Part shown: piece by piece, positions 26,368 to 41,670 of the stretch
Position numbering within the stretch: position 1 is the first letter of the stretch
Layout: the number at the start of each line of letters is the position of its first letter
DNA from: Clostridia bacterium
GTDB taxonomy: Bacteria > Bacillota > Peptococcia > DRI-13 > SV3-B141
DNA length: 53,821 bases
Reading direction: 5' to 3'
Assembly: GCA_018433015.1 (NCBI GenBank)
Contig: JAHDSB010000032.1
Span: 1-53,821 of the forward strand
Made by a program: the position numbers and the translations under genes
Notes under the pieces: generated by a model
Told to the model about the DNA's origin: nothing
What the model saw: only the letters and a program-made list of their open reading frames with translations
Database searches by the model: none

Positions 26368-26396
26368 TTGACACTGGAGATTTTAAGTGCTAAAGT
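26368..26396 (+). promoter_or_regulatory. Candidate promoter of the malonate cluster
   Basis: TTGACA (26368-26373) with TAAAGT (26391-26396) at a 17-bp spacer. The -10 is imperfect; TATAAA at 26396-26401 would need a 22-bp spacer. It lies between vanW and the leader terminator at 26484. Confidence 0.4.
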
Positions 26397-26402
26397 ATAA
26401 AT

Positions 26403-26524
26403 GAAAGATGAGAATTAGCGCCAAAAGAGAGAGTTTTGTGAAGTTTTCTTATACCGTATTATAATTGAATAAAGGTGAATTAGAGACATATTAAGTAGAG
26501 AGTTACTTAATATGTCTTTTTTTG
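26403..26524 (+). promoter_or_regulatory. Leader RNA with terminator before the malonate cluster
   Basis: A noncoding stretch of about 120 nt that ends in a perfect 14-bp terminator stem, AGACATATTAAGTA (26484-26497) with TACTTAATATGTCT (26504-26517), plus T7. It follows the candidate promoter and precedes the first gene by 87 bp. The 5' part holds several NAG triplets (TAG at 26416 and 26481, AAG/GAG run at 26425-26433, and TAG at 26496 overlapping the end of the 5' arm). It may be an attenuator, perhaps a HutP-type target, or a separate small RNA. It resembles no riboswitch that I recognise. Confidence 0.55.
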
Positions 26525-26610: not shown

Positions 26611-26736
26611 TTGGGTGTTATAGAATATGCATTTTTAGCCTATGCCTTAACTGCCTTGATTTCATTATTAGTTATAGGAGTTATTGTTTTAATTAATAAA
26701 GTTATGTCAAAAAGTCAAAGAAATGAGGAGGTGTAA
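26611..26736 (+). CDS. 41-aa single-span membrane peptide, OadG-like position
   Basis: A 41-residue protein with one membrane helix (about residues 8-30, LAYALTALISLLVIGVIVLIN) and a short basic tail (KVMSKSQRN). TTG start behind AGAAAGGGTGAG. Its 3' end carries the GAGGAGGTG ribosome site of madB, 3 bp downstream, so they are coupled. Small single-span gamma subunits (OadG/MmdC type) help assemble other Na+-pumping decarboxylases. This one lacks their C-terminal periplasmic/cytosolic tail, so a gamma-subunit role is inferred only from position and topology. Confidence 0.6.
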   Translation: MGVIEYAFLAYALTALISLLVIGVIVLINKVMSKSQRNEEV

Positions 26737-26739
26737 TGT

Positions 26740-27948
26740 ATGCTTGATAATATTATACAACTCTTCCCGGGTATAAGCAGTTTTTTTCTGGAAGAACCCG
26801 CAGTTGCAATTGCCAGAATTGTATTGATATGCTTAGGATTTTTATTAGCTTATTTAGGTTTTAAAAGAGTGTTAGAGCCCCTGATTATGATTCCTATGGG
26901 TATAGGGATGATTGCTATAAATGCAGGTGTTCTCTTTTTAGCCCCTGGCAAATTAGGTACTATATTTTTAGACCCCTTAGTTTCTCAGCCCGATGCCTTG
27001 ATGAATATCATGCAGGTTAATTGGTTACAACCTATTTATAATTTTACTTTTAGCAATGGTTTGATTGCTTGCTTAGTATTTATGGGAATCGGAGCTATGA
27101 GTGAAATCGGTTTTATTCTTGCTAGACCTTGGGCTAGTGTAGTTGTGGCACTTTTTGCAGAGCTGGGGACATTTATCACTTTGATTTTAGGTGTAAAATG
27201 GGGGCTATTACCTAATGAAGCCGCTTCGGTTGCTGTTATAGGTGGGGCCGACGGGCCCATGGTCTTGTTTACATCCTTGGTGCTAGCAAAAGATTTATTT
27301 GTCCCTATTGCAATAATATCTTATCTTTATTTAAGTCTAACGTATGCAGGTTATCCATATTTAATTAAATTATTAGTTCCTAAAAAATATAGAGGGTTAG
27401 ATGTTGAAGTTCCTGTTCCGGATGTATCTAAAAAAGCAAAATTTGTGTTTACTGTTGTGGTTTGCGGATTATTATGTCTTTTGCTGCCCGTAGCTGCTCC
27501 ATTGGTTGTTTCTTTCTTTCTAGGCGTAGCAATTAAAGAAGCAGAGGTTATTAAGTTCCAAGAATTCCTAGAAGGTCCGTTAACGTATGCCGCTACCCTT
27601 TTTTTAGGGTTTATTTTGGGAGCACTTTGTGAAGCCCAGACGATCATGAATCCTAAAGTAGGCATTTTAGTCGTCTTAGGTATTATTGCTTTAGCAATAT
27701 CAGGTTTTGGAGGGTTACTGGGAGGATGGATAGTTTATTGGTTTTCTAAGAAAAATTATAATCCTGTTATTGGTATTGCTGGGGTATCTTGCTTACCCAC
27801 GACGGCAAAAATTGCTCAAAAAGTTGCTTCTGAAGAGAATCCCTTTGCTGTTATCATGCCTTTAGCTATGGGGGCCGGCGTTAGTGGTGTGATCGTCTCT
27901 GCTATTGCTGCAGGGGTCTATATCTCTACAATACATTTGCTAAATTAA
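26740..27948 (+). CDS. madB: Na+-translocating decarboxylase beta subunit, malonate type
   Basis: 402 residues with about nine to eleven membrane segments. The OadB/MmdB/MadB signature region reads AVIGGADGPMVLF (about 165-178, with the essential Asp), preceded by PLIMIPMGIGMI and followed by the C-terminal GIAGVSCLPTTAKIAQK. The family decarboxylates carboxybiotin and exports Na+. Given the neighbouring malonate genes and biotin carrier, it should accept carboxybiotin from MadF. In Malonomonas rubra madB also precedes madA. Confidence 0.93.
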   Translation: MLDNIIQLFPGISSFFLEEPAVAIARIVLICLGFLLAYLGFKRVLEPLIMIPMGIGMIAINAGVLFLAPGKLGTIFLDPLVSQPDALMNIMQVNWLQPIYNFTFSNGLIACLVFMGIGAMSEIGFILARPWASVVVALFAELGTFITLILGVKWGLLPNEAASVAVIGGADGPMVLFTSLVLAKDLFVPIAIISYLYLSLTYAGYPYLIKLLVPKKYRGLDVEVPVPDVSKKAKFVFTVVVCGLLCLLLPVAAPLVVSFFLGVAIKEAEVIKFQEFLEGPLTYAATLFLGFILGALCEAQTIMNPKVGILVVLGIIALAISGFGGLLGGWIVYWFSKKNYNPVIGIAGVSCLPTTAKIAQKVASEENPFAVIMPLAMGAGVSGVIVSAIAAGVYISTIHLLN

Positions 27949-28042: not shown

Positions 28043-28495
28043 ATGAAAGAATGGGCAGATTGTTTCGCAAAAGAAAAAAATTGGAATGTAGAAACGGCAG
28101 CCATGTTATTAGCTCTTACCTGGAGTTTAGAGGCTGAAAATGAGGTTAAGAATATTTTGGATAAACAGGGAATGAAGTATGTAGTAACAGAAATTGGGGG
28201 TAGATCTTTTGGAGAGTTTCAAGGAAAGACTACCAAAGCTGTGTTAGGAGCTTGCTTGAATAATGGGTTAATAAAAAAGACAGCACCCCAGGCTCATGCG
28301 GTGCTTCATGCCGCAGAAGAAGCAAAAAAAGGGATCATGGTTAATGCTTCGACCAGCACAAGCATTGCGGTTAAAGTGGCTATTGTTCGCAATGATTATT
28401 GGGTAGCGGTAGCAATGTTCGGGCAATCAGCCATTCACCCTCTTACAAATCATTATCGAGCCGGATTGGGTGTTATGCATTTAACAAATAACTGA
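28043..28495 (+). CDS. HutP-like RNA-binding antiterminator
   Basis: 150 residues aligning along its length with B. subtilis HutP (148 aa). QAHAVLHAAEEAKKG corresponds to the HutP segment with His73 and His77 (here His85 and His89), and LTNHYRAGLGVMHL to the segment with His138 (here His137). Those three His coordinate the Mg2+ that, with L-histidine, activates HutP. The DYWVAVAMFGQSAIHPL strand also matches. HutP binds NAG/UAG triplets and prevents termination ahead of hut genes. No hut genes are here; the next gene is madA, after a terminator rich in NAG triplets. I infer control of the malonate operon. The ligand may be histidine, malonate or something else. Confidence 0.8.
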   Translation: MKEWADCFAKEKNWNVETAAMLLALTWSLEAENEVKNILDKQGMKYVVTEIGGRSFGEFQGKTTKAVLGACLNNGLIKKTAPQAHAVLHAAEEAKKGIMVNASTSTSIAVKVAIVRNDYWVAVAMFGQSAIHPLTNHYRAGLGVMHLTNN

Positions 28496-28522
28496 GTGAA
28501 GCTTACTTGAATTCACCAACAA

Positions 28523-28613
28523 CAGTAGTATAGATTCAGCAGAAAAAAAGAATACAGGTGATGGAGGGATAGATATTAGCCTTAGGGGCTTCTATGTATC
28601 CCTTTATGTTTTT
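28523..28613 (+). promoter_or_regulatory. Terminator with NAG/UAG triplets between hutP-like gene and madA
   Basis: A hairpin at 28565-28603 (AGGGATA with TATCCCT, then ATA/TAT, then AGCC/GGCT) is followed by TTTATGTTTTT, an intrinsic terminator. Triplets of the NAG type crowd its 5' side: CAG 28523, TAG 28526, TAG 28531, CAG 28537, CAG 28540, AAG 28548, CAG 28555, GAG 28564, TAG 28570, TAG 28577, TAG 28583. The last four are spaced by 3, 4 and 3 nt and lie in the 5' arm and loop. Protein bound there would block the hairpin. It is a candidate HutP-type antitermination site. Confidence 0.6.
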
Positions 28614-28652
28614 ACTGGGGTAGTTCATTTTTTTAGAAAGGAGTTGGGGTCC

Positions 28653-30323
28653 ATGGGAACCGAGATTACAAAAGTATGGGATTCTCTGAAAAGAGATACT
28701 CAGGAAAGGTTAAACAAGGTTAAACATTTAGTTAAGGAAGGGAAGGTGGTGGCGGCTGAAGATACTGTTGCTTTACTGGAGGGAGTTATAAAACCGGGAG
28801 ATAAAGTTAATTTGGAAGGAAATAATCAAAAACAAGCAGATTTTTTAGCAGAATGTTTATGCAAAGTAGATTCTAATAAAGTGCATGATCTCCATATGGT
28901 ACAGTCAGTGCTTGCCTTAAAAAGTCATTTAGATGTGTTTGAAAAGGGTATTGCCAAGAAGTTGGACTATTCTTTTTCCGGTCCTCAAGCAGGACGCCTG
29001 GCGGAATTTGTTAGAGATGGAAAGCTAGAATTAGGTGCTATACACACTTATTTGGAATTATTCGGGAGATATTATGCGGATTTAATTCCACGGGTAGCTT
29101 TAGTGGTGGGTTTTGAGGCTGACAAGGAAGGTAATCTTTATACCGGATTCAATACTGAGGATACACCGGTTATTGTAGAAGCTACTAAATTCAAACAAGG
29201 CATTGTAATAGCACAGGTGAACAAAATTGTGGATAAAGTTCCTCGCGTTGATATTCCCGGCGATTGGGTTGATTTTGTTATAGAGTCCCCTAAACCTTTT
29301 TACATTGAACCTCTATTCACCAGAGATCCTGCCCTGATCACTGATACGCAAGTATTGATGGCTATGATGGCTATTAAAGGGATTTACGGTGAATATGAAG
29401 TGCAGAGCATGAACCATGGAATAGGCTTTTTTACTGCCGCCATTGAACTATTGCTTCCTACATATGGAGAAGAACTGGGGTTGAAGGGGAAAACATGTTC
29501 TTATTTCTGTTTAAATCCTCATCCTACCTTAATACCTGCGATTGAGAAGGGGTGGGTTAAGTCCATTCATTGCTTTGGCGGAGAATTAGGAATGGAAGAG
29601 TACGTAAAAGCCAGATCAGATATATTTTTTGTAGGACCTGATGGGAGTTTGCGTTCTAATAGGGCATACTGTCAGGCTGCCGGTCACTATGCTATGGACA
29701 TGTTTATAGGAGGTACGTTACAGATTGATAAATATGGTAACAGTAGTACGGCAACAGCCAACAGGATAGCCGGATTCGGTGGGGCCCCCAATATGGGATG
29801 TGATGCCAAGGGACGTCGTCACAGCTCGGAAGCATGGTTAAAATGCGGTGAAGAATATGGAATACAAGGGGACCTAGTTGGAAAAATGCCCCGGGGGAAA
29901 AAATTAGTTGTCCAAATGCAGGAAACATTTAAAGAAAAATTAGAGCCAGCCTTTGTGGAAGAACTAGATGCTGAGCAATTGCAAAAGAATGCCGGATTGG
30001 ATTTACCTCCTGTAATGATTTATTCCGACGATTTAACCCACATTATCACGGAAGAAGGCATTGCTTATATACATAAATGCGCAGATATGAAAGAAAAGAT
30101 GGCGGCAATTAGGGCTGTGGCCGGATACACGAAAATAGGTCTCCAGGCTGACGAACAAGAAACAAAGGTTTTGCGGCAAAAGGGTATAGTTAAGACTCCC
30201 GCAGATTTAGAGATTGATATCACCAGAGCAAACAGATCTTTGCTAGCTGCCAAAAATATCAAAGAACTAGTTGAGTGGTCCGGTGGTTTATATAGTCCTC
30301 CGGCAAAATTTAGAAATTGGTAA
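28653..30323 (+). CDS. madA: Malonate decarboxylase alpha subunit (acetyl-ACP:malonate ACP transferase)
   Basis: 556 residues, the length of MadA/MdcA. Matches to the family include SFSGPQAGRLAEFVRDGKLELGAIHTYLELFGRYYADLIPRVALVVGFE..., HCFGGELGMEEYVKARSDIFFVGPDGSLRSNRAYCQAAGHY and SSTATANRIAGFGGAPNMGCD (read in short blocks across the protein). It swaps acetyl for malonyl on the ACP thiol, the first step of the cycle. The ATG at 28653 is 9 nt after AAAGGAG. It is the first structural gene after the hutP-like terminator. Confidence 0.95.
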   Translation: MGTEITKVWDSLKRDTQERLNKVKHLVKEGKVVAAEDTVALLEGVIKPGDKVNLEGNNQKQADFLAECLCKVDSNKVHDLHMVQSVLALKSHLDVFEKGIAKKLDYSFSGPQAGRLAEFVRDGKLELGAIHTYLELFGRYYADLIPRVALVVGFEADKEGNLYTGFNTEDTPVIVEATKFKQGIVIAQVNKIVDKVPRVDIPGDWVDFVIESPKPFYIEPLFTRDPALITDTQVLMAMMAIKGIYGEYEVQSMNHGIGFFTAAIELLLPTYGEELGLKGKTCSYFCLNPHPTLIPAIEKGWVKSIHCFGGELGMEEYVKARSDIFFVGPDGSLRSNRAYCQAAGHYAMDMFIGGTLQIDKYGNSSTATANRIAGFGGAPNMGCDAKGRRHSSEAWLKCGEEYGIQGDLVGKMPRGKKLVVQMQETFKEKLEPAFVEELDAEQLQKNAGLDLPPVMIYSDDLTHIITEEGIAYIHKCADMKEKMAAIRAVAGYTKIGLQADEQETKVLRQKGIVKTPADLEIDITRANRSLLAAKNIKELVEWSGGLYSPPAKFRNW

Positions 30324-30343: not shown

Positions 30344-30685
30344 GTGGCTCTTAAGGAGTTAAATTTTGAATTCAAAGCCGCTACCCCTAAAACTATAAAG
30401 AAAGAGTGGGCTCATTTGGGAGTTGTGGGTTCAGGAGATATGGAAGTTTTACTGGAGAAAAGAAGATTAAATGGCGCAGTAAAAGTAAAAGTTGTTACAC
30501 CTGTAACCGGTTTTGAAAAAGTTTGGGAATTGGTGCTGGCTAAAGTTGTAAAAGACAATAACTTGGGCGATGTATACATGGAAATTAATGATAATAATGC
30601 AACTCCTATAGTTGCTTCTATGAGACTAAGGCAAGCTTTGGCTGAAGCAAGTAAGCCGGAAAGAGAGGTGGAGGAGAATGCTTAA
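30344..30685 (+). CDS. madE: Malonate decarboxylase acyl carrier protein
   Basis: 113 residues, like MadE/MdcC. Ser30 in VGSGDMEVLLE is the expected attachment site of the 2'-(5''-phosphoribosyl)-3'-dephospho-CoA group. The C-terminal NNATPIVASMRLRQALAEA is also typical. GTG start behind AAAGGAGG. The last 8 bp overlap madC. Confidence 0.93.
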   Translation: MALKELNFEFKAATPKTIKKEWAHLGVVGSGDMEVLLEKRRLNGAVKVKVVTPVTGFEKVWELVLAKVVKDNNLGDVYMEINDNNATPIVASMRLRQALAEASKPEREVEENA

Positions 30686-31640
30686 TTGGGAGAAATTACA
30701 ACAACTTAATTTTACTGATGCAAATGCCAGAGAACGGGCATTTGGTTTGGTTGATAAAGGGAGTTTTACAGAATTTGTATCTCCTCGCGACAAAATGTCC
30801 AGCCCTCATCTTCCCGTATTGGGCGAAGCTATTGAGTTTGATGACGGAATCGTAACAGGACTTGGTTTGCTTGGCAGTAGACCTGTTTTTGTAATATCTC
30901 AGGAAGGAAAATTTATAGGCGGTGCTATCGGAGAAGTTGGTGGCGCTAAAATGGTCAAAACAATAAAGTTGGCCTTGCAAACCTATGAGAGGGTAAAAAA
31001 AATAACTCCCGCTTCTTATGAAAAAAGACTTCCGGCAGTAATCATTTCTTTTGAAACGGGAGGAGTTAGGTTACATGAAGCAAATGCAGGGCTGCTGGCC
31101 CATGCAGAAGTAATGGATCAAATTCAAGACGCTAGAGGGAAAATCCCCATTATAGCAGTTATCGGGAGCAAAGTAGGGTGTTTTGGCGGTATGGGTTTTG
31201 TCGCTGCGGCAACGGATATTATCGTTATGAGTGAAAACGGACGGTTGGGATTAACGGGTCCGGAAGTAATTGAGCAAGAAATGGGTAAAGATGAATTTGA
31301 TGCGGCCAATAAAGCGTTAGTCTTTAGAACAACTGGAGGCAAACATAAGTACATCATGCAAGACTGCAACTTTTTGGTTGAGGATAGTGTGCGGGCGTTT
31401 AGAACTCAATTGAAAGAAATAATGAACATACCTTTCCCGGAAATAGAGAAATATAGAAGAATTGGATCCCTGCAATTAGTTGAAGAGCAGTTGGAACTTG
31501 TAAAATCAGCAGTTACCATAGGTCCAAAAGATGCACAAGATATGTGGAAATATTATGGCAATGATAATCCTCAAGCCTTAGCCGATATATCCCCAAAGGA
31601 ATTTTTAGCTACGGTAAAACGGCGGGAAAGAGTTATTTAA
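30678..31640 (+). CDS. madC: Malonate decarboxylase carboxyltransferase, beta-type subunit
   Basis: 320 residues of the crotonase/carboxyltransferase fold, homologous to MadC/MdcD. Blocks seen: RERAFGLVDKGSFTEF, FIGGAIGEVGGAKMVKT, GGVRLHEANAGLLAHAEVMD and GCFGGMGFVAAATDIIVM (oxyanion-hole glycines). In the biotin-type system it moves the carboxyl of malonyl-ACP to biotin, together with MadD. ATG within the overlap with madE, behind GGAGGAG. Confidence 0.94.
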   Translation: MLNWEKLQQLNFTDANARERAFGLVDKGSFTEFVSPRDKMSSPHLPVLGEAIEFDDGIVTGLGLLGSRPVFVISQEGKFIGGAIGEVGGAKMVKTIKLALQTYERVKKITPASYEKRLPAVIISFETGGVRLHEANAGLLAHAEVMDQIQDARGKIPIIAVIGSKVGCFGGMGFVAAATDIIVMSENGRLGLTGPEVIEQEMGKDEFDAANKALVFRTTGGKHKYIMQDCNFLVEDSVRAFRTQLKEIMNIPFPEIEKYRRIGSLQLVEEQLELVKSAVTIGPKDAQDMWKYYGNDNPQALADISPKEFLATVKRRERVI

Positions 31641-31663: not shown

Positions 31664-32554
31664 ATGGAAGAAACAATGATTGGCCGAGGCAGAGAGGCCA
31701 TTGAGATGATATTTGATGTTGACTCTGTGCGGGAAAATACAATTGGAGCTTATCAAGTTGAGGGAGAAATAGGGCCAGGTGCCGTGGTGGGAACCGCGCG
31801 GATAGAGGGACAAGAGGTAACCTTTATTGCCAATGACGCCCAGGCTATTAATCCGCGGTTTAATGTGGTTTATTTCGGAGTAATAGGCTTGGAAGAAGCT
31901 TATAAAATGGCATTAACTGTTTATTATACTATAGAAGTTGATAAGGATAAGCCTTTAGAAAAAAAGAGACCCCTGGTATTAATTGTTGATACGCCAGGGA
32001 ACGGACCTGGAAAAGTTGAGGAAATTATTGGAATGAACAAGGCTACGGGCAGCTATCAGTTAGCCTTAGCCGAAGCAAGGAAAGCAGGTCATCCCATTAT
32101 AGCAATGGTAATTGGCCGGGCCATCAGCGGAGCTTTTTTGTGCCATGGCCTACAAGCGGACCATATTCTTTCCTTGGATAAGGATTTTGGCACTATGATT
32201 CATGTTATGCCGATTACAAGCATAGCCAGAATTACTAAGCTTGATATCGAACGGTTAGAGAAATTGTCGGAAGATAATCCTGTATTTGCTGCCGGAGTAG
32301 ATTTTTTTTATAGATTGGGGGGAGTAGAAGAAATAGTTGATAAAGTGGAAAATATGAAAGCGGCGATTAAAAAGCATATTGCTGAGGTATGCCAATTAAA
32401 GAAAAATGGGCGATTTGATAAATTAGGACCTTGGGGCCGCGGCTTATTAGGAGAAGAGCGCGGCGGCAGAACATCCCGCAAAAAAGTTATACAGCTGATG
32501 GATACTCAATATGAAGCGGTGATTGATAAATATATATCGGGAATGGAGCATTAG
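31664..32554 (+). CDS. madD: Malonate decarboxylase carboxyltransferase, gamma-type subunit
   Basis: 296 residues, homologous to MadD/MdcE. It has VLIVDTPGNGPGKVEEIIGMNKATGSYQLAL and AMVIGRAISGAFLCHGLQADHI, the second half of the carboxyltransferase pair. RBS AGAGGAGGG precedes the ATG. The stop is 3 bp before madH, so genes are tightly packed. Confidence 0.93.
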   Translation: MEETMIGRGREAIEMIFDVDSVRENTIGAYQVEGEIGPGAVVGTARIEGQEVTFIANDAQAINPRFNVVYFGVIGLEEAYKMALTVYYTIEVDKDKPLEKKRPLVLIVDTPGNGPGKVEEIIGMNKATGSYQLALAEARKAGHPIIAMVIGRAISGAFLCHGLQADHILSLDKDFGTMIHVMPITSIARITKLDIERLEKLSEDNPVFAAGVDFFYRLGGVEEIVDKVENMKAAIKKHIAEVCQLKKNGRFDKLGPWGRGLLGEERGGRTSRKKVIQLMDTQYEAVIDKYISGMEH

Positions 32555-32557
32555 GGG

Positions 32558-33658
32558 ATGAAAGATTTCTTTGCCGATTTAAAAATGCTGGCAGAAGATT
32601 TCGGCACGACACCAACCCTGGAAGATATGCCGAAAAGGAGCCTAGCTGACAAAGGAATCAAGGGTCCTACGGCAGCTCATGTTATCGAAGAAGTCCATTG
32701 CCCTTTGAATCTTGCTTATCTTACTTTCACTACCGGTTCCTCTGCTTTTCAGAATATCGTAGGTATAACATATACAGAAATAGACAATAGGGTGAAAGCT
32801 GCTCGGCTCGCCCTGGAAAAAGCAGAAGTAAAAAAGGGTGCTGCTGTGTTATTTACTTATCCGCCTTTAGTAAATGTTTTTTCAAAAAGAGCCCTAGATG
32901 AATACGGCTTGAAATGGAGTTTTTTACGGCGATCCGATAGAGATGAGTTTTTATATGAATTGTGTGAAAAGAATCCAGATGTAATTATAGGTGAATCTTC
33001 TTTTTTAAGAGCTGCGTTGGAAGATGCTAAAAGGATGGAGATAGTATCATATTTACCGCAAGATAAGATACTGCTTGCGGCAGGTGCGCCCCTGGATATG
33101 GAGCTTTTACAAGTAGCGGAAGAAACTATGCATTCTAAAGTACATGATTTGTACGGCTGTCAAGAATTCGGATGGCTGATGTTGGATGGGGAGTTTTTAA
33201 GAGATGACATAAGCTTGTTAAAAATTCCAGATAGTAGAGAGGGATACTATGAAGTAACCGTGGGTGGGCTCCCTATGGGTGATAGTTTTCCCGTTGCAGA
33301 ATCAGGGCATGTCTGCAATAAAGAAGGGAAGGTTATAACATATCGGAGGAAAAGAACATATCCGGAATATGAAGTGTTTGTAAGGGCAACAACCCTATCT
33401 TCTTGTGAAACTATTAAGCGGGTAGCCAGAACAATTTTAAGAATTAAAAGCCGAATAGTCCGGATTGAGCAAAATATTAAGCTTTCTGCTCCTTTTACAG
33501 TATTGGAAGTGCAACCTATAACGGAAAATAGCAAAAAGAGCAAAAGCTTTTTAATAGAAGGACCAGAAAAAACGCAGCTTTTTGATGAGCTGGTAAAGGC
33601 CCAGCTAAATTATCAGCAATCAAGCAAAACTGATCCTGCCTGGACAAAGAAAGGATAA
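32558..33658 (+). CDS. madH: Acetate:ACP ligase-like protein MadH (AMP-forming ligase fold)
   Basis: 366 residues with an adenylate-forming ligase look: LAYLTFTTGSSAFQNIVGITYTEID resembles the phosphate-binding loop, YGCQEFGWLMLDGE the substrate/adenine motif. It is shorter than usual acyl-CoA synthetases and seems to lack most of the mobile C-terminal domain. In Malonomonas rubra madH lies in the same place after madD and encodes the ligase that acetylates the ACP thiol with acetate and ATP. That is the likely role here. Confidence 0.78.
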   Translation: MKDFFADLKMLAEDFGTTPTLEDMPKRSLADKGIKGPTAAHVIEEVHCPLNLAYLTFTTGSSAFQNIVGITYTEIDNRVKAARLALEKAEVKKGAAVLFTYPPLVNVFSKRALDEYGLKWSFLRRSDRDEFLYELCEKNPDVIIGESSFLRAALEDAKRMEIVSYLPQDKILLAAGAPLDMELLQVAEETMHSKVHDLYGCQEFGWLMLDGEFLRDDISLLKIPDSREGYYEVTVGGLPMGDSFPVAESGHVCNKEGKVITYRRKRTYPEYEVFVRATTLSSCETIKRVARTILRIKSRIVRIEQNIKLSAPFTVLEVQPITENSKKSKSFLIEGPEKTQLFDELVKAQLNYQQSSKTDPAWTKKG

Positions 33659-33667
33659 ATAGTAGTT

Positions 33668-34354
33668 ATGCAAAGGCATAGTTTATTGGCCATAACAAAC
33701 GAAGGCAGAGAACGGGCATTTAAACAAGTAGAAAGATCTTATTTATTAAAGAATTCGGGATTGGTTAGAAAGTTGATTGTAGAAGGATATGAAGGTGTAA
33801 AGGTTCCGGGAATTATAAGGCGTGCGGAAGAAGGGAAAGTTGCAGGAAAGATTGCAGTAGGCTTTTCTTCCCCTATGCGCTATAAAAATAGCAGATTAAG
33901 AATACCTGCCTTTATTTCGGAAAGGGAACTTATAAGGGTCATAACACCATACGAAGTTATGAGACAAAGTGGTAGTCATCGAACTAAGTGCTTGAAAGCC
34001 CTCCAACAGGTTAAGGCAGTTGCTCAAGATATGAAAATAAAAGTGGGCATCTGGGGCTCCTGTGCTCTGGAAGTTTGTACCGGCTTACCCTATACGGATG
34101 AGGAGTCGGATTTGGATTTACTGATAGGGGCTAATCATCTCAGCAAAATAGAAGAGTTTTATAAAGCTTTAGAGGCCATAGGAGAAAGGTGGGAGTGCAA
34201 GATTGATTTAGAATTGAATTTGCCTATAGGCTATGATGTCAAAGTTGCTGAACTATTTAGGTTTACCGAGGATGTCTTGGGTAAAAACAGGGATGAGGTA
34301 AGGTTAATCCCGAGGGAAAATATTTTGAATATGCTCAAAATTTTTGAGCAATAA
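33668..34354 (+). CDS. mdcG: Phosphoribosyl-dephospho-CoA transferase (holo-ACP synthase, MdcG-like)
   Basis: 228 residues. The nucleotidyltransferase motif is plain: GIWGSCALEVCTGLPYTDEESDLDLLI (about 130-155), with the GS and the DxD acids needed to transfer the prosthetic group to MadE Ser30. The N-terminus MQRHSLLAIT is like MdcG. It corresponds to madK in the M. rubra order. The ribosome site is weak (AAAGGA 13 nt upstream), so coupling to madH is likely. Confidence 0.87.
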   Translation: MQRHSLLAITNEGRERAFKQVERSYLLKNSGLVRKLIVEGYEGVKVPGIIRRAEEGKVAGKIAVGFSSPMRYKNSRLRIPAFISERELIRVITPYEVMRQSGSHRTKCLKALQQVKAVAQDMKIKVGIWGSCALEVCTGLPYTDEESDLDLLIGANHLSKIEEFYKALEAIGERWECKIDLELNLPIGYDVKVAELFRFTEDVLGKNRDEVRLIPRENILNMLKIFEQ

Positions 34355-34376
34355 AAATATAAAAGGAGGAAAAATA

Positions 34377-34586
34377 ATGGAAATTAAAGCGCGAGTTCCT
34401 GGGAAAATAATGGAGATCAAAGTAAAAGTGGGTGATGCTGTAAAGACAAAAGATGTAGTTGCAGTTATGGAAGCAATGAAAATGCAGCAGGCTATTCCGA
34501 CTCCACAAGACGGTATTGTCAAGGAAATTAGAGTAAATACGGGGGAAAGAGTAAATCCCGGTACGGTACTTATGGTAATCGAATAA
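34377..34586 (+). CDS. madF: Biotin carrier protein of malonate decarboxylase
   Basis: 69 residues, a minimal biotinyl/lipoyl domain. Lys35 in MEAMKM is the biotinylated lysine, and MEIKARVPGKIMEIKVKVGD is the typical first beta hammerhead. It carries CO2 from MadC/MadD to the MadB pump, which sets this system apart from biotin-independent Mdc enzymes. Start ATG 8 nt after AAAGGAGG; a TTG 33 bases upstream is inside mdcG and not supported. Confidence 0.95.
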   Translation: MEIKARVPGKIMEIKVKVGDAVKTKDVVAVMEAMKMQQAIPTPQDGIVKEIRVNTGERVNPGTVLMVIE

Positions 34587-34645: not shown

Positions 34646-34741
34646 TTAAGTATACGGGTTTTATTAATAGTATAAGTGAAAGTTTTTATAAATTTTCTCG
34701 GATCTGTGTTCAAATTTAATAGAAGGAGGTGCCATAAGAGA

Positions 34742-35137
34742 GTGGCTATTTACGGGTTAACATTATTATCCGCGTGTATGTTTGTTGGTGTAATGCTGGG
34801 TGATATCTTAGGCAAAGTAGTCGGGGTGGAAGCTAATGTAGGTGGGGTTGGATTTGCTATGCTATTTTTAATTCTCGTTTCTGATTATTTGTTAGAGCAT
34901 GATAAGTTATCGCTGAAAGCTCAGTCAGGAATAAAATTCTGGAGTATGATGTATATCCCTGTAGTTGTAGCGATGACAGCCAGACAAAACGTTGTTGCTG
35001 CAGTTAAAGGTGGCCCTATGGCGATTCTATGTGGAGTGTTAGCTGTTATCGTGGCTTTTGCTTTTGTACCTATAATTAGTAAAATAGGTGAAAAAGGAAC
35101 TCCTTTACCTGGAAAAGACCAAGGAAAGGAGGCGTAA
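34742..35137 (+). CDS. madL: Malonate transporter subunit MadL
   Basis: 131 residues, about four membrane helices. It begins VAIYGLTLLSACMFVGVMLGD and has the family block VGVEANVGGVGFAMLFLILVSDYL. GTG start about 10 nt after GAAGGAGGTG; a GTG/ATG-less extension upstream (22 codons) is basic and unlike the family. MadL works with MadM to import malonate, probably with Na+ or protons. Confidence 0.9.
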   Translation: MAIYGLTLLSACMFVGVMLGDILGKVVGVEANVGGVGFAMLFLILVSDYLLEHDKLSLKAQSGIKFWSMMYIPVVVAMTARQNVVAAVKGGPMAILCGVLAVIVAFAFVPIISKIGEKGTPLPGKDQGKEA

Positions 35138-35143
35138 ATTAGT

Positions 35144-35905
35144 ATGGAAATGGTGCTTAACATATTTATAAAATATAATCTGGTAATGGCTTTTCTGATC
35201 ATAGGTATTGTAATGTATGGGGCTGATTGGGTTTCTAAAGCCACTAATAAAAGAATTGCCGGCTCAGCTATAGCCATACTTATTGGCTTAGGTTTAGCTT
35301 ATATCGGTGGGGTTATTACCAATAACGGAAATGGTGGCTTGGCTAATGTTCCGCTCTTTTCCGGTTTAGGTATCATGGGCGGTTCTATGCTTAGGGACTA
35401 TTGTATTATTTCTACGGCCTTTGGGGCAAGGATATCTGAAATTAAAAAAGCTGGTTTAGCCGGTATTATTTCATTATTTGTAGGGGTTATTGCTTCTTTT
35501 ACTGTAGGTGTAACACTTGCTTTATTATTTGGTTATACAGATGTGGTAAGTGCTACAACGATTGGAGCGGGAGCCGTAACATTTATAGTAGGTCCGGTAA
35601 CCGGGGCGGCTCTAAGGGCCAGTTCGGATGTAATTGCTTTAAGTATAGCAGCAGGTGTGGTTAAATCTATTTTAGTTATGATTATGACACCCTTTGTGGC
35701 TAAGTTCATAGGTTTGAATAATCCTAAATCTGCTATGGTTTATGGTGGATTAATGGGTACAACTAGCGGTACGGCTGCCGGGTTAGCGGCTACTGATGAA
35801 AGATTGGTTCCTTATGGTGCTATGACGGCAACGTTTTTCACAGGATTAGGCTGCTTAATGTGTCCGTCGGTGCTGTATTTAGTTACGAGGATAATTTTAG
35901 GCTGA
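35144..35905 (+). CDS. madM: Malonate transporter subunit MadM
   Basis: 253 residues, seven or more membrane helices. FIKYNLVMAFLIIGIVMYGADWVSK at the N-terminus and GIMGGSMLRDYCIISTAFGA, GAGAVTFIVGPVTGAALRASSDVIALSIAAG are characteristic. Six bp after madL. Supplies malonate to the decarboxylase. Confidence 0.92.
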   Translation: MEMVLNIFIKYNLVMAFLIIGIVMYGADWVSKATNKRIAGSAIAILIGLGLAYIGGVITNNGNGGLANVPLFSGLGIMGGSMLRDYCIISTAFGARISEIKKAGLAGIISLFVGVIASFTVGVTLALLFGYTDVVSATTIGAGAVTFIVGPVTGAALRASSDVIALSIAAGVVKSILVMIMTPFVAKFIGLNNPKSAMVYGGLMGTTSGTAAGLAATDERLVPYGAMTATFFTGLGCLMCPSVLYLVTRIILG

Positions 35906-35970: not shown

Positions 35971-36009
35971 TAATTTATTTATTCATAATTGGCAGAAGGA
36001 GGGAAAAAA

Positions 36010-36927
36010 ATGCGTTTATTAGAAGCGGATAAATGCACTGCTATTAAAATTGATGAAGAAGCGTGGCGGATCGGAAACTCATTTTTAAAAGGTATTCTTT
36101 TGGAAGTTAGTGCGTATCCGAAACCCGGCTTGGTTTGCGCAAAATCAATGGGAGCCCATAAAGATATGAATATTTTAACTTTTATGATCAGTTCGGCTAC
36201 AATAGGACCGGCTTTTTATCTGTGTGCCCAAACCGGCAGAGATCATCAAGGAAAGTTAAAAGAACTTTTCCAAAATATAAGAAAAATAGGAGTTAGGTAT
36301 GAAAAGGAATTAATGTTATCTACCAAAGGAGTTAATACTCAGCGGGGTATACTTTTTGCTGCCGGAATAATGTGTGCAGCGGCAGGTTATTTATCGCGTT
36401 ATAAAGAAACTTATAGCATCGATGAAGTATTTGGCACCGTATCCGAGATGGCAGAAGGGATAGTATGCCAGGAGCTGATGTGTTTGCAAAGATTAAATAA
36501 GAAAAGATATACAGCAGGAGAACAGCTATATTTAAAATATCAGGTTACAGGTATTCGTGGTGAAGTTGAGTCAGGTTTTCCTTCCGTACGGAATGTGGGA
36601 TTGCCTGTTTTTAAAGGAGTTTTACAACGAAGTAAGACCTTGAATGAGTGCTTAGTTCATACCTTGTTAGCTTTAATGGCTTGTGTAGAAGATACGACTA
36701 TTTTATGGAGGAAAGATAAGGATGCTTTATTAGCAGTGCAAAAATCAGCGCAAAAGATATTAGATAAGGGAAGTATATATACAAGTCATGGTAGGAGAGA
36801 GATCTATGAACTGAATAAAGAATTTATAAAAGAAAATATTAGTCCGGGAGGTTCTGCAGATCTATTATCCATTACGGTAGGCAGTTACTTATTAGAAAAT
36901 AATCAATTTTACGTAAAATTGATGTAA
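36010..36927 (+). CDS. mdcB: Triphosphoribosyl-dephospho-CoA synthase (MdcB/MadG/CitG family)
   Basis: 305 residues. SAYPKPGLVCAKSMGAHKDM, STKGVNTQRGILFAAG, GIRGEVESGFPSVRNVGLP and NISPGGSADLLSIT are CitG/MdcB motifs. It makes the precursor of the ACP prosthetic group from dephospho-CoA and ATP; mdcG then attaches it. Start ATG 6 nt after GAAGGAGGG; a TTG 21 bases upstream is inside the ribosome region. In M. rubra the homologue is near the front of the cluster, here it is last. Confidence 0.92.
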   Translation: MRLLEADKCTAIKIDEEAWRIGNSFLKGILLEVSAYPKPGLVCAKSMGAHKDMNILTFMISSATIGPAFYLCAQTGRDHQGKLKELFQNIRKIGVRYEKELMLSTKGVNTQRGILFAAGIMCAAAGYLSRYKETYSIDEVFGTVSEMAEGIVCQELMCLQRLNKKRYTAGEQLYLKYQVTGIRGEVESGFPSVRNVGLPVFKGVLQRSKTLNECLVHTLLALMACVEDTTILWRKDKDALLAVQKSAQKILDKGSIYTSHGRREIYELNKEFIKENISPGGSADLLSITVGSYLLENNQFYVKLM

Positions 36928-37265: not shown

Positions 37266-37689
37266 ATTTTATTAAGTTAGTTTACTCAGCTTCGTATTAT
37301 TGGTCTTTGAAAAAATATTAATTTAATACCCAGTGATCAAGGAAAGATTTCTCAAAAAAGGTAACGCATAAAACGTAAATAAAGTCAATGCTTGAAAAAA
37401 AATAGGGGATTAGATAAAATGTATTGTGAAAGATTTAACAATATTAGTAAAATTTAATATTCGGATAATAACATAAATAGAAAGATGGTTGCTGTTATAA
37501 ATAGATATTGACTAATAAGGTATGATTTTACAATGGGAATATGATAAAATAAAGGCAAAACAGGGAGGTGGTGGTATAGGATTGCATACTATATTTAATT
37601 TATATATGAAGTGCTAATTTACAGAAAAAACAAAAAACAAAAAATGGAGAGGGTTATTTTTAAGGTTATTTATCAAGAAGGTGGTGCTA

Positions 37690-38283
37690 ATGAACACAAA
37701 AGTTAAGGTGGAATATAAGACAGAGAAAATGCCTGTGTTTAAGCATTTTTGTATGATTTTTATTGTGCTGTTTTGTTTTTGGTCAATTCTGTCAGGGCAT
37801 TTTGATTTTAAACATTTATCTATTGGTGCTGTGACATCATTAATAGTAGCATGGATTACCTTACCTTTGTTATGTATACCATCAACAACGACTAAAGGTA
37901 CATACTTTATGGCCTTTTCGCTACCGATTATAAAATTGGTGCGATATGGTATCTGGCTTTTAGTCGAAGTAGTCAAAGCTAATATCCATGTTGCCCTTTT
38001 AGTTTTAAACCCCAAAATGCCTATAGATCCTTATATAGTCACTTTTAATAAGGAAATGTCTAATCCTATTGCCCATGCTGCCCTGGCTAATTCTATTACT
38101 TTAACTCCCGGGACAATAACTGTTGATGTTGTTGAAGGGGAGTACATTGTTCATGCAATTACCAAAGAACATGGATATAGCCTTGCTCCTGATAAGGGAG
38201 AAGGGGATATGCCAGTTCGTATAGCTAAATTGTTTAATGAACAGGAAATTTTGGCTAAGAGGTGGCAAGATGTTGACCTTTGA
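37690..38283 (+). CDS. mrpE: Mrp antiporter subunit E (MbhA-like)
   Basis: 197 residues. Two or three N-terminal membrane helices (about 15-65) and the typical MrpE block WLLVEVVKANIHVALLVLNPK, then a soluble C-terminal domain with NSITLTPGTITVDVVEGEYIVHAI. First gene of an eleven-gene operon. Start ATG 5 nt after AAGAAGGTGG. MrpE stabilises the antiporter complex. Confidence 0.92.
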   Translation: MNTKVKVEYKTEKMPVFKHFCMIFIVLFCFWSILSGHFDFKHLSIGAVTSLIVAWITLPLLCIPSTTTKGTYFMAFSLPIIKLVRYGIWLLVEVVKANIHVALLVLNPKMPIDPYIVTFNKEMSNPIAHAALANSITLTPGTITVDVVEGEYIVHAITKEHGYSLAPDKGEGDMPVRIAKLFNEQEILAKRWQDVDL

Positions 38284-38551
38284 TCATTTATTTATTGCGT
38301 TAATAATAGGTTTATTGATTATAATTATACTCATGCTTTATCGCGTTATCAAAGGGCCTACTGCCTTTGATCGTTTAAATGGATTAGGTGTGATTGGAAC
38401 AGATACTATATTATTGCTAATTCTATTCGGTTTTTTAAATAAACGCGTGGAGATGTATGTTGACATTGCTATTGCCTATGGAATATTAGGTTTTATTAGC
38501 CTTGTTGTATTAGCGAAATATATAGAAAGCAAGGGGGGCACAAATAGATGA
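38270..38551 (+). CDS. mrpF: Mrp antiporter subunit F (MbhB-like)
   Basis: 93 residues, three membrane helices. VIKGPTAFDRLNGLGVIGTDTILLL is the MrpF hallmark. The start is the ATG at 38270, overlapping the mrpE stop by 14 bp and behind AGAGGTGG. Confidence 0.92.
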   Translation: MLTFDHLFIALIIGLLIIIILMLYRVIKGPTAFDRLNGLGVIGTDTILLLILFGFLNKRVEMYVDIAIAYGILGFISLVVLAKYIESKGGTNR

Positions 38552-38847
38552 AAATACTTGCCCTTATCTTTATGTTATCAGGATTCTTTTTTACTCTGGT
38601 AGCAGCCCTGGGAGTCTTACGTTTCCCGGATTTTTATACCCGACTACATGCATCTGGGAAAGGTGATACTTTAGGTATTGGTCTTTCTATATTTGGGTTA
38701 GCCTTATATCATGGATTTTCCTTAATAAGTCTTAAATTATTATTTATAGTTATCTTTATCTTCCTCGCCAACCCTATAGGTACTCATGCAATTTGTAGAG
38801 CAGCATATAGGAGCGGGTTGAGACCCTGGATGCGGAAGGAGGAATAA
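38548..38847 (+). CDS. mrpG: Mrp antiporter subunit G (MbhC-like)
   Basis: 99 residues, three helices. AALGVLRFPDFYTRLHASGKGDTLGIGLSI is the conserved MrpG core. ATGA overlap with mrpF. Confidence 0.93.
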   Translation: MKILALIFMLSGFFFTLVAALGVLRFPDFYTRLHASGKGDTLGIGLSIFGLALYHGFSLISLKLLFIVIFIFLANPIGTHAICRAAYRSGLRPWMRKEE

Positions 38848-38849
38848 CA

Positions 38850-39092
38850 TTGTTAAAAATGTATGTACAAGCTATTTTATTAGCTATTATGGTTTTTACA
38901 GGTTTTGCAGCGATATTCGTTAAAGACCTGTTAGCGGCTATTATTATGTTTGGAGCCTTTAGCTTCTTTGCTGTTTTGATATATTTGGTCTTAGGAGCTC
39001 CTGATGTGGCTTTTACTGAAGCTGTAGTCGGGGTGGTTTCAACAACCTTCTTTGTTATTGCCCTTAACCGTGTACGTAGGAGGTGCTCTTAA
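38850..39092 (+). CDS. DUF4040/MbhD-like subunit (MrpA C-terminal part 1)
   Basis: 80 residues, two to three helices. LAAIIMFGAFSFFAVLIYLVLGAPDVAFTEAVVGVVSTTFFVIAL matches the part of MrpA that corresponds to NuoJ; APDVAFTEA is its hallmark. As in archaeal Mbh complexes it is a separate gene. TTG start behind GAAGGAGG. Stop shares one base with the next start (TAATG). Confidence 0.88.
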   Translation: MLKMYVQAILLAIMVFTGFAAIFVKDLLAAIIMFGAFSFFAVLIYLVLGAPDVAFTEAVVGVVSTTFFVIALNRVRRRCS

Positions 39093-39379
39093 TGAGGAAG
39101 GCTATTTCCTATGTAACTGTTGCGGGTATGCTATTTTTTCTTTTTGCTGTTGCAGGAGCTTTGCCCCAGCTTTATGATCCCAATTCTCCTGCTGCACGCC
39201 ATGTTTCGCCACGTTATATTGAAAAAAGTCACGAGGAAATTGGGTCAGCCAACTATGTAACGGCAGTTTTAGCAGATTATCGTGGCTATGATACATTAGG
39301 GGAAACAACAGTTATTTTTACCGCAGGAGTTGTTACAGTGATGCTCTTGAGGACAGGTTTAAAAAGAAAGAAATTATGA
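39092..39379 (+). CDS. MbhE-like subunit (MrpA C-terminal part 2)
   Basis: 95 residues with two membrane helices and the block ENYVTAVLADYRGYDTLGETTVIF-like sequence (here IGSANYVTAVLADYRGYDTLGE), typical of the MrpB-domain end of MrpA/MbhE. Start ATG 6 nt after AGGAGGTG. Confidence 0.88.
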   Translation: MRKAISYVTVAGMLFFLFAVAGALPQLYDPNSPAARHVSPRYIEKSHEEIGSANYVTAVLADYRGYDTLGETTVIFTAGVVTVMLLRTGLKRKKL

Positions 39380-39392
39380 GGTGAGGTCAAGA

Positions 39393-39824
39393 ATGAATAG
39401 AGATTTTGGTAGCATTGTTCTAGACACAGCCTTTAGATATTTAGTTCCATTTATATTAGTATATGGCGTCTATGTATTGCTGCATGGCGAGGAAAGCCCG
39501 GGGGGCGGATTCCAAGCAGGAGCATTATTTGGCATTGCCATTATCATAGCGAGGCTAGTTCAAGGAGAAAAATGTGAATTAAATATTCCGGGGAACGCTG
39601 CTGTAGTTTTGGGAGGTCTGGGAACATTTATCTTCGGCTTTATAGGGCTTTTGTGTATTTTTTTTGGTGGAAACTTTTTAGAATATGGAGTGTTGTCCTT
39701 TTTACCTGAACCTCAAAGGCACACCTTAGGAATATTAGGCATTGAGATTGGTGTAACTATCTGTGTAATGGCGACGATTATTACGATTTATGATGCACTT
39801 ACCAGAAGGGAAGTATCATTATGA
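39393..39824 (+). CDS. mrpB: Mrp antiporter subunit B (MbhF-like)
   Basis: 143 residues, four helices. FRYLVPFILVYGVYVLLHGEESPGGGFQAGALFGIAII is the MrpB signature. Start ATG behind TGAGGTGAGG; 4-bp overlap with mrpC. Confidence 0.93.
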   Translation: MNRDFGSIVLDTAFRYLVPFILVYGVYVLLHGEESPGGGFQAGALFGIAIIIARLVQGEKCELNIPGNAAVVLGGLGTFIFGFIGLLCIFFGGNFLEYGVLSFLPEPQRHTLGILGIEIGVTICVMATIITIYDALTRREVSL

Positions 39825-40189
39825 GTAAAGAGTTTTTATCACAGTATTTACTGTATTGGCTGATTGCTGTTTTGTTCATGATAGGCCCTATAGGGATGAT
39901 TTTTAAAAATAATCTTATGAAAAAACTGATGGCTATGAATATTATGCAAGTTGCTGTGATAATTTTTTTCTTGGCATTAGGTCAGAAAATGGACGCTACA
40001 TTACCTATAGAGATTCCTGGTTTAACAGGGGTTACTAACTATATTAATCCTCTTCCCCATGCCCTTATGCTGACGGCCATAGTTGTTAGTTTGAGTACAA
40101 CGGGGGTAGCTCTAGCCTTACTTTTATTAATACAGAAAAAGTATGGGGTCCTAGAAGAAGATGAGGTATTACGGAGGATGGATCAATGA
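39821..40189 (+). CDS. mrpC: Mrp antiporter subunit C (MbhG-like, NuoK homologue)
   Basis: 122 residues, three helices. The NuoK-like motif NPLPHALMLTAIVVSLSTTGVALAL is intact. ATGA overlaps on both sides. Confidence 0.94.
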   Translation: MSKEFLSQYLLYWLIAVLFMIGPIGMIFKNNLMKKLMAMNIMQVAVIIFFLALGQKMDATLPIEIPGLTGVTNYINPLPHALMLTAIVVSLSTTGVALALLLLIQKKYGVLEEDEVLRRMDQ

Positions 40190-41670
40190 GGGAACAATAT
40201 CCGGCTTTACTAATTATTGTGCCGCTTTTGACTGCACTTGTAATTCCAATAATTGCTTATTTAGTTAAGCGCTTAGTACGCTGGATAGCTATGGGTGCTT
40301 TGATTATAGCTAATATTAGTGCTATAGGAGCTTTGATGCATGTTCTTAACCAAGGAGTATGGCATTATAGATTTGGGAATTGGATGCCGCCCTGGGGGAT
40401 TGAATATGTAATAGATCCTTTAAGTGCAGGCATGGCTTTATTAATTTCTTTCATAAGTTTAGTAGTTTTGATATATTCTGATGTGTTTCTAAAAGAAGAG
40501 GGTTGGCTGAAAATTGGAATGTATCATACTCTTTATTTACTGTTAACAGTAGGTTTGCTAGGTATGGTTGTTACAGGGGATGTATTTAATTTTTATGTGT
40601 TTCTTGAGATATCCTCTTTATCAGCATATGGTTTAATTGCTTCCGGTGGTTCTAAAGCAGTAGTTGCTGCTTTTCGTTATTTATTAATTGGGACTATTGG
40701 AGGTTCTTGTTATCTATTAGGTGTAGGTTATTTATATGCTATAACAGGTACTCTTAATATGGGGGATTTAGCTGTAAGAGTACAGCCCCTTATGGATTCA
40801 CCAGCTGTTATAGTAGCTGTTTCTATGATTTTAGTAGGAATGGGTATCAAAATGGCCTTGTTTCCTATGCATGGTTGGTTACCTGACTCTTACACATATG
40901 CACCTCCCCATGCCATATCTTTCATTTCTGGAGTAATGACGAAAGTGGCGGCTTATGCCATGTTTCGCTATTTCTATTTCATTTTTGGAGCAGCCAATGA
41001 AACAATAGCTATAGTTTTGCAGGTTATAGGCGCATTTGCTGCTATAGGTATTATCGTTGGATCTATTATGGCTATTGCTCAGTCGGATTTCCGACGAATG
41101 CTAGCTTATTCCAGTATAGCCCAGGTTAGTTATATAGCTTTGGGACTGGCCATCGGTAATATGTATGGGCTGATTGGTGCTATGTTTCATATTCTCAATC
41201 ATGCCATTATGAAATGCTGTTTATTCCTTATTGCGGGTGGGATTAAATGGAAGACGGGAGAATATAAGATTGCTAAATTTATTGAAATGAGTCGTAAGAT
41301 GCCAAAAACTATGGGAGCATTTATCATTGCGGCGCTATCAATGGTAGGCATTCCACCTACGGCAGGATTTTTTAGTAAATGGTATCTAGTTTTAGGTGCT
41401 ATTGAAAAAAACATGTGGATTTATGTAGCAGCTATTGTTCTGAGTAGTTTGCTAAATGCTATCTATTTCTTCCGTATCATAGAAAATGCTTATTTAAAGA
41501 AAGGTCAGGAGGATATAGTCCCTGCCTCCCCTAAAAAGCCTGAACTGCCCTTTAGTATGCTTGTACCTATCATTGTATTAGGGATAGGGATACTAATTAT
41601 AGGTATTTTTAATGAGCCTATTGTTTGTCAAGTTATGCAGTATGGACTCCCAGGGGGTGGAATGAGATGA
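40186..41670 (+). CDS. mrpD: Mrp antiporter subunit D (MbhH-like)
   Basis: 494 residues, about fourteen helices, NuoL/M/N family. Key ion-path residues are present: the TM5 Glu in FYVFLEISSLSAYG, the TM7 Lys in GMGIKMALFPMHGWLPDSY, Lys in GVMTKVAAYAMF, and the Lys in HAIMKCCLFLIAGG. Ribosome site ACGGAGG. It should carry out Na+/H+ exchange with the other subunits. Confidence 0.94.
   Translation: MREQYPALLIIVPLLTALVIPIIAYLVKRLVRWIAMGALIIANISAIGALMHVLNQGVWHYRFGNWMPPWGIEYVIDPLSAGMALLISFISLVVLIYSDVFLKEEGWLKIGMYHTLYLLLTVGLLGMVVTGDVFNFYVFLEISSLSAYGLIASGGSKAVVAAFRYLLIGTIGGSCYLLGVGYLYAITGTLNMGDLAVRVQPLMDSPAVIVAVSMILVGMGIKMALFPMHGWLPDSYTYAPPHAISFISGVMTKVAAYAMFRYFYFIFGAANETIAIVLQVIGAFAAIGIIVGSIMAIAQSDFRRMLAYSSIAQVSYIALGLAIGNMYGLIGAMFHILNHAIMKCCLFLIAGGIKWKTGEYKIAKFIEMSRKMPKTMGAFIIAALSMVGIPPTAGFFSKWYLVLGAIEKNMWIYVAAIVLSSLLNAIYFFRIIENAYLKKGQEDIVPASPKKPELPFSMLVPIIVLGIGILIIGIFNEPIVCQVMQYGLPGGGMR

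Follow-up and report, generated by a model that had tools for sequence, protein, structure and literature searches.

Candidate tandem attenuation of a clostridial malonate decarboxylase operon by an operon-encoded HutP-family protein

The malonate decarboxylase (mad) operon analyzed here is probably controlled by tandem transcription attenuation, in which a HutP-family protein encoded within the operon would act with a metal and a malonate-type inducer at two intrinsic terminators, T1 in the leader and T2 between hutP and madA. The operon lies in a 53,821-nucleotide stretch of a Clostridia bacterium genome (contig JAHDSB010000032.1), referred to below as the window, and all of its features described here are on the forward strand. 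HutP is the textbook ligand- and metal-dependent antiterminator and is known from the histidine pathway alone; in Bacillus subtilis, the protein is hexameric and, together with L-histidine and Mg2+, keeps the terminator of the hut operon from forming (PMC7430163). If the present reading is correct, the HutP family would gain a second class of ligand through a conserved module of HutP and terminator on malonate operons, and clostridial malonate decarboxylase operons would have in HutP the regulator that they have lacked. A first-pass annotation of this DNA was aware of no description of HutP for malonate operons; likewise, no paper naming HutP together with malonate decarboxylase was found among the open-access papers searched, where the two that mention both HutP and malonate were unrelated by title.

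On the basis of profile assignments, the window carries a complete Na+-pumping malonate decarboxylase operon, with madA, the acyl carrier protein, the beta and gamma subunits, MadB, MadL/MadM, and cofactor genes. A 41-aa, single-pass membrane ORF with a TTG start (26611 to 26736) sits where a small decarboxylase subunit would be expected and may have that function; similar small ORFs occupy the same place in relatives. It is followed by madB, encoding the carboxybiotin decarboxylase or Na+-pumping subunit (26740 to 27948; TIGR03136, E value of 2.5e-207), by hutP (28043 to 28495), and by madA, encoding the alpha subunit (28653 to 30323; TIGR01110, E value of 2e-297), for which the likely start is ATG 28653, chosen by its ribosome-binding site and located after AGAAAGGAG, the start of the listed ORF being TTG 28644. 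Further downstream are the genes for the acyl carrier protein or delta subunit (madE; 30344 to 30685; TIGR03130), the beta subunit (madC; 30678 to 31640; TIGR03133), the gamma subunit (madD; 31664 to 32554; TIGR03134), an AMP-binding-like protein with a weak PF00501 match (32558 to 33658), which from its operon context is probably an acetate:ACP ligase, the holo-ACP synthase (mdcG; 33668 to 34354; TIGR03135), the biotin carrier protein (madF; 34344 to 34586; PF00364), the two subunits of the malonate/Na+ symporter (madL, 34676 to 35137, PF03817; madM, 35144 to 35905, TIGR00808), and an mdcB/citG-like triphosphoribosyl-dephospho-CoA synthase (35989 to 36927; TIGR03132, 272 bits against a cut-off of 282). 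The enzyme is of the type found in Malonomonas rubra, whose Na+-translocating malonate decarboxylase operon includes the MadB pump, a biotin carrier, and MadL/MadM; the window operon differs in having hutP with a terminator interposed between madB and madA. Directly downstream lies an Mrp-type Na+/H+ antiporter operon, identified by eye (37681 to 43169), and the adjoining of this antiporter and a Na+-pumping decarboxylase suggests that their sodium energetics are linked.

The 150-aa product of 28043 to 28495 is assigned from its sequence as a HutP family member that has HutP's metal site. It matches Pfam HutP (PF09021) with an E value of 2e-33 over profile positions 1 to 128 of 128, and a 15-member profile of its relatives matches the solved HutP chains 4ok9, 1vea, and 1wmq (E values of 8e-15 to 3e-11); a single-sequence phmmer search with the window protein matched no HutP structure. 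As an AlphaFold model of the monomer built from three sequences was too weak for comparison (pLDDT of 68, low confidence; no meaningful Foldseek match), family membership rests on sequence profiles. The protein falls far under the NCBIfam equivalog for true hut HutP, with 22.8 bits against a cut-off of 155. In the profile alignment, His85, His89, and His137 correspond to the metal histidines His73, His77, and His138 of HutP, as had been read from the sequence in the first-pass annotation, and these are invariant in all eight aligned mad HutPs. That annotation had also proposed a comparison of contact residues with HutP structures, in which the metal triad and Glu81 (Glu93 in the window) prove to be kept, and Arg88, which contacts histidine together with Glu81, is replaced by Val or Ile in every mad HutP aligned. 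Substitutions are also found in the mad HutPs at Glu55, Thr56, and Glu137, which are RNA contacts of B. subtilis HutP; their loss agrees with a changed RNA site. Conversely, an arginine near the third metal histidine (Arg139) has been gained and is constant in mad HutPs, as is a basic Lys/Arg pair at positions 95-96. In a tree with several long branches, the mad-operon HutPs fall into a single group with moderate support (90/74), and they could provide a natural series for how ligand and RNA specificity shift while the metal site stays.

The proposed operon promoter is a sigma-A-like sequence, TTGACA-17-TAAAGT with TG before the -10 (26368 to 26396). Its counterparts, of the form TTGACA-17-TA(A/T)A(C/A)T, lie 113 to 151 nt upstream of T1 also in four relatives, with 12 of 12 matches in G002 and G009 and 10 of 12 in G012 and G022 (10 to 12 of 12 across the five genomes, window included), and a second promoter-like site at 26436 to 26465 is less consistent among relatives. 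T1 (26484 to 26524), absent from the first-pass annotation, comes after this promoter and before the operon's first genes; it consists of a 14-bp perfect stem (26484 to 26497 with 26504 to 26517) and a T-run. Such an order, with a strong promoter and a strong terminator ahead of the genes, is characteristic of attenuation. The second terminator, T2 (28565 to 28616), had been recognized at the outset as lying directly after hutP and before madA, and this placement is upheld by its hairpin arms (28565 to 28581 and 28587 to 28603, 82% complementary), by its folding energy of about -24 to -26 kcal/mol, and by the TIGR01110 assignment of madA. The hairpin (28565 to 28603) is followed by a T-rich yet interrupted tail, TTTATGTTTTTA, and the hutP-madA spacer, folded once over 155 nt, is not unusual against shuffles (z of -1.0). 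The end of the T2 stem is separated from the madA ribosome-binding site by only 44 nt in the window, with similarly short distances in most relatives, and no promoter was found between T2 and madA in the window. Given this short gap, which leaves no room for a promoter, transcription of madA must pass T2, and a madA transcript starting at the leader promoter must therefore pass T1 as well.

Placing these features into the context of other genomes lends weight to their association. In whole-genome searches, the order madB-hutP-madA was found in nine genomes from two separate clostridial groups, one comprising six genomes of the same order (G000, which contains the window, G002, G009, G012, G018, and G022) and the other three genomes from the family of Hungatella sp. 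UBA5385 (G430, G449, and G739); many of the genomes compared are split into many contigs. Scanning of the last 170 to 260 nt upstream of madA identified one strong hairpin with a U-run in all nine hutP-containing operons (-15 to -25 kcal/mol) and in none of ten mad operons lacking hutP (G398, G378, G428, G429, G291, and five more distant madA loci in the Hungatella family), where the best candidate reached -7.6 kcal/mol and five loci had nothing at all. This distribution corresponds to a p of about 1e-5 if the operons are independent, the true strength being lower as the genomes are partly related. The survey for hutP and terminators in mad operons that the first-pass annotation had suggested thus yielded the hairpin in every case, and the situation that it named as contrary to its proposal, retention of hutP with loss of the hairpin, was not observed. 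Leader terminators corresponding to T1 are present in G002, G009, G012, G022, G430, G449, and G739, which together with the window makes eight of the eight operons that could be inspected, G018 being excluded as its contig ends before the leader. Because it recurs in nine operons, this anatomy, apart from the NAG spacing considered below, is far beyond chance. Among the loci without hutP, L058, L059, L089, and L090 (G398, G378, G429, and G428) represent a separate mad operon type from another taxonomic class, in which madB is only about 32% identical, the biotin carrier directly precedes madA, and neither hutP nor a terminator is present.

It could be argued that T1 and T2 are not regulated at all and act as constant polarity devices, fixing how much membrane pump and HutP is made relative to decarboxylase, with hutP retained for another reason. 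Internal terminators do sometimes serve stoichiometry, and the interrupted T tract of T2 in the window would be compatible with this role. We nevertheless regard it as quite unlikely, as the terminators are present only where hutP is, a strong promoter directly before a strong leader terminator makes little sense unless termination is relieved, and T1 and T2 share a sequence element that is partly outside the hairpin and not needed for termination.

This element emerged from an alignment of eleven T1 and T2 regions of the order as one ungapped 23-nt sequence, roughly AAATAGTGGMGAANNAGRGAYA, whose AGRGAYA end forms the base of the hairpin 5' arm. Its two copies in the window, GAATAAAGGTGAATTAGAGACAT at 26467 to 26489, overlapping the base of T1, and GAATACAGGTGATGGAGGGATAG at 28550 to 28572, overlapping the base of T2, are the proposed binding sites. 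A weight matrix built from relatives only, with the G000 sequence excluded, ranked these first and second among 107,598 window positions (15.9 bits at 26467 and 15.1 bits at 28550, the third match scoring 10.5), and T1 and T2 were also the top two with leave-one-genome-out matrices in G012, G022, G002, and G009, the close relative of each of the last three being dropped as well. The third match, at 37547 to 37569 just upstream of the antiporter operon, contains the ribosome-binding-site-like AGGGAGGT and is probably due to chance. In the 3.75-Mb genome, the consensus in its G000 version is matched exactly at T1 and T2 and nowhere else; since the pattern was derived from these sites, the count shows only that there is no third copy. 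By manual counting on the arms, stem pairs 3 and 6 vary on both sides with pairing kept (A-T/G-C and C-G/T-A). For the mixed T1/T2 alignment, RNAalifold returned no structure, because the loop lengths differ and the arms fail to align, and it predicted no consensus antiterminator hairpin.

Since the element extends beyond the hairpin into sequence that termination does not require, a trans-acting factor that reads both sites is its simplest explanation. That this factor is HutP is a prediction, because RNA and ligand contacts of B. subtilis HutP are replaced and the known RNA site of the B. subtilis protein, NAG-N4-NAG (PMC7430163), was not found. It is conceivable instead that the element is read by another RNA-binding protein, a small RNA, or a small riboswitch, and that HutP does something else. 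Its difference from NAG-N4-NAG would be explained in this way, as would its persistence in G012 (L056/L101:2727-2962), where T1, T2, and the element are retained and hutP, frameshifted and without about 68 N-terminal residues, has either decayed or been misassembled. The element was also sought and not found beside the terminators of the Lachnospiraceae loci, where operons have the same HutP group, or beside those of the CoA-transferase, nif, and permease loci. Lineage-specific coevolution of protein and RNA site would account for the Lachnospiraceae difference, however, and the region matches no Rfam family, in this genome the element occurs nowhere but in the mad operon, and hutP is the sole regulator-like gene of the operon, in the terminator-plus-HutP arrangement known for its family. 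A reader other than HutP is consequently considered unlikely. The sharing of one element by two attenuators brings this idea within reach of direct tests on short RNAs and a single small protein.

The first-pass annotation had pointed instead to an array of NAG triplets near T2 as close to the HutP site. The triplets are where it placed them (GAG 28564, TAG 28570, TAG 28577, and TAG 28583, with spacers of 3, 4, and 3 nt), and loose NAG triples in the window alone have a p of about 0.07 to 0.08. Over 22 HutP-linked terminators, 13 NAG-N4-NAG pairs were observed against 14.9 +/- 3.6 expected from dinucleotide shuffles, no perfect NAG triple was present, and the looser triples with 3- to 4-nt spacing were marginal (11 against 6.1 expected, 25 of 500 shuffles being as high). 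NAG-N4-NAG spacing was rejected as a binding signal for this reason, and the triplets in the window accordingly do not represent a conserved signal; it is the 23-nt element that is conserved.

Under the preferred reading of HutP-mediated attenuation, the constitutive sigma-A promoter would start transcription of the operon, and without malonate the majority of polymerases would be halted at T1 and T2, the few that leak past T1 yielding some MadB and HutP. An oligomer of HutP with metal and inducer would then bind the 23-nt element of the nascent RNA, where it overlaps the foot of the 5' arm, and keep this arm unpaired, such that no hairpin forms and the polymerase proceeds into madA and the remainder of the operon. 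As read-through at T1 would also raise HutP, the switch should be self-reinforcing. The direction of control is not readable from sequence, and HutP might have the opposite or a different sign, acting as a ligand-dependent terminator factor released by malonate or its product, or as a translational regulator. We judge this to be improbable, as the element overlaps the base of the 5' arm, where binding would hinder the hairpin, not help it, and the known HutP is an antiterminator (PMC7430163).

Malonate itself, or a closely related metabolite such as malonyl-CoA, is the most likely inducer. This expectation stems from the association of window-like HutPs with a second malonate pathway: in G062 and G089, hutP precedes a terminator, then a family III CoA-transferase and MadM (MadL being found in G062), and in G190 and G264 it precedes a PAS-type regulator, a terminator, a CoA-transferase, MadL, and MadM. 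The occurrence of one regulator family on two different malonate pathways points to malonate or malonyl-CoA as the signal. Across a 398-genome sample, nine genomes have MadM, and HutP is in the same cluster in six of these (not in G124, G287, and G374). At the loci with the PAS-type regulator genes (L148:3055-4470 and L149:3254-4681, in G190 and G264), the sequence immediately upstream of the CoA-transferase holds a terminator and a GAG-rich stretch that is conserved. Were the mad HutP still to sense L-histidine, the mad operon would be under histidine or nitrogen control, and conservation of the metal histidines and Glu81 would be in line with this. However, Arg88, a histidine contact, is Val or Ile in all mad HutPs, with Arg139 gained, and hutH is absent from all six mad-hutP genomes of the order, including that of the window (99% complete); taken with the link to two malonate pathways, this makes histidine sensing highly improbable.

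The proposed system resembles that of B. subtilis in its protein family, the three metal histidines, Glu81, and a gene just before an intrinsic terminator and catabolic genes. It differs from B. subtilis HutP in Arg88, the RNA contacts, and NAG-N4-NAG, as described above, and from the hut operon in serving malonate genes in a genome without hutH. The layout of hutP, terminator, and hutH was suggested in the first-pass annotation to have been moved to malonate; this is accurate for the terminator preceding the catabolic genes, and less so for the remainder, as hutP is internal here and the first gene in B. subtilis, and a second, matching terminator is present in the leader. BglG/SacY/LicT and GlpP are likewise inducer-dependent proteins that relieve a leader terminator of a catabolic operon, with their gene often in the operon. 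They are unrelated in family, as the window protein matched only PF09021, and the mad element differs in directly overlapping the 5' arm, with no consensus antiterminator hairpin predicted. The known regulators of malonate decarboxylase or malonyl-CoA synthetase operons, of the MdcR/LysR and MatR/GntR types, are malonate-responsive DNA-binding repressors or activators, whereas the mad HutP would be an RNA-binding protein acting on elongation.

More broadly, it could be speculated that HutP is a reprogrammable metal-dependent antiterminator family in Firmicutes, with subfamilies that have acquired new ligands and new RNA sites on malonate decarboxylase, CoA-transferase-MadLM uptake, and possibly, where a terminator comes after hutP, nif, amino acid permease, and other operons, the mad version sensing malonate (or malonyl-CoA) through the metal site at two attenuators; we put the chances of this wider generalization at somewhat short of even. 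Several further HutP contexts were encountered. A window-like HutP in G048 (L037:5712-6209) is upstream of a nitrogenase operon with PII-like nifI genes, nifH, and nif D/K-like genes, with a terminator-like hairpin between, another in G087 (L039:5722-6189) precedes an amino acid permease across a 700-nt gap with a strong terminator, and a third in G003 (L035:5946-6368) is located after trpBA and before an OadG-like small protein, again with a strong terminator. A second and far more widespread HutP-family protein, which is without the HxxxH metal histidines, is encoded directly before the chorismate mutase gene aroH (L003, L004-L032, and L109-L137; aroH nearby in 33 of 58 loci checked), and its function appears to be undescribed so far. 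The genome of the window has such a gene on contig C134 (L003:6502-6924), with no terminator before aroH and with DAHP synthase next.
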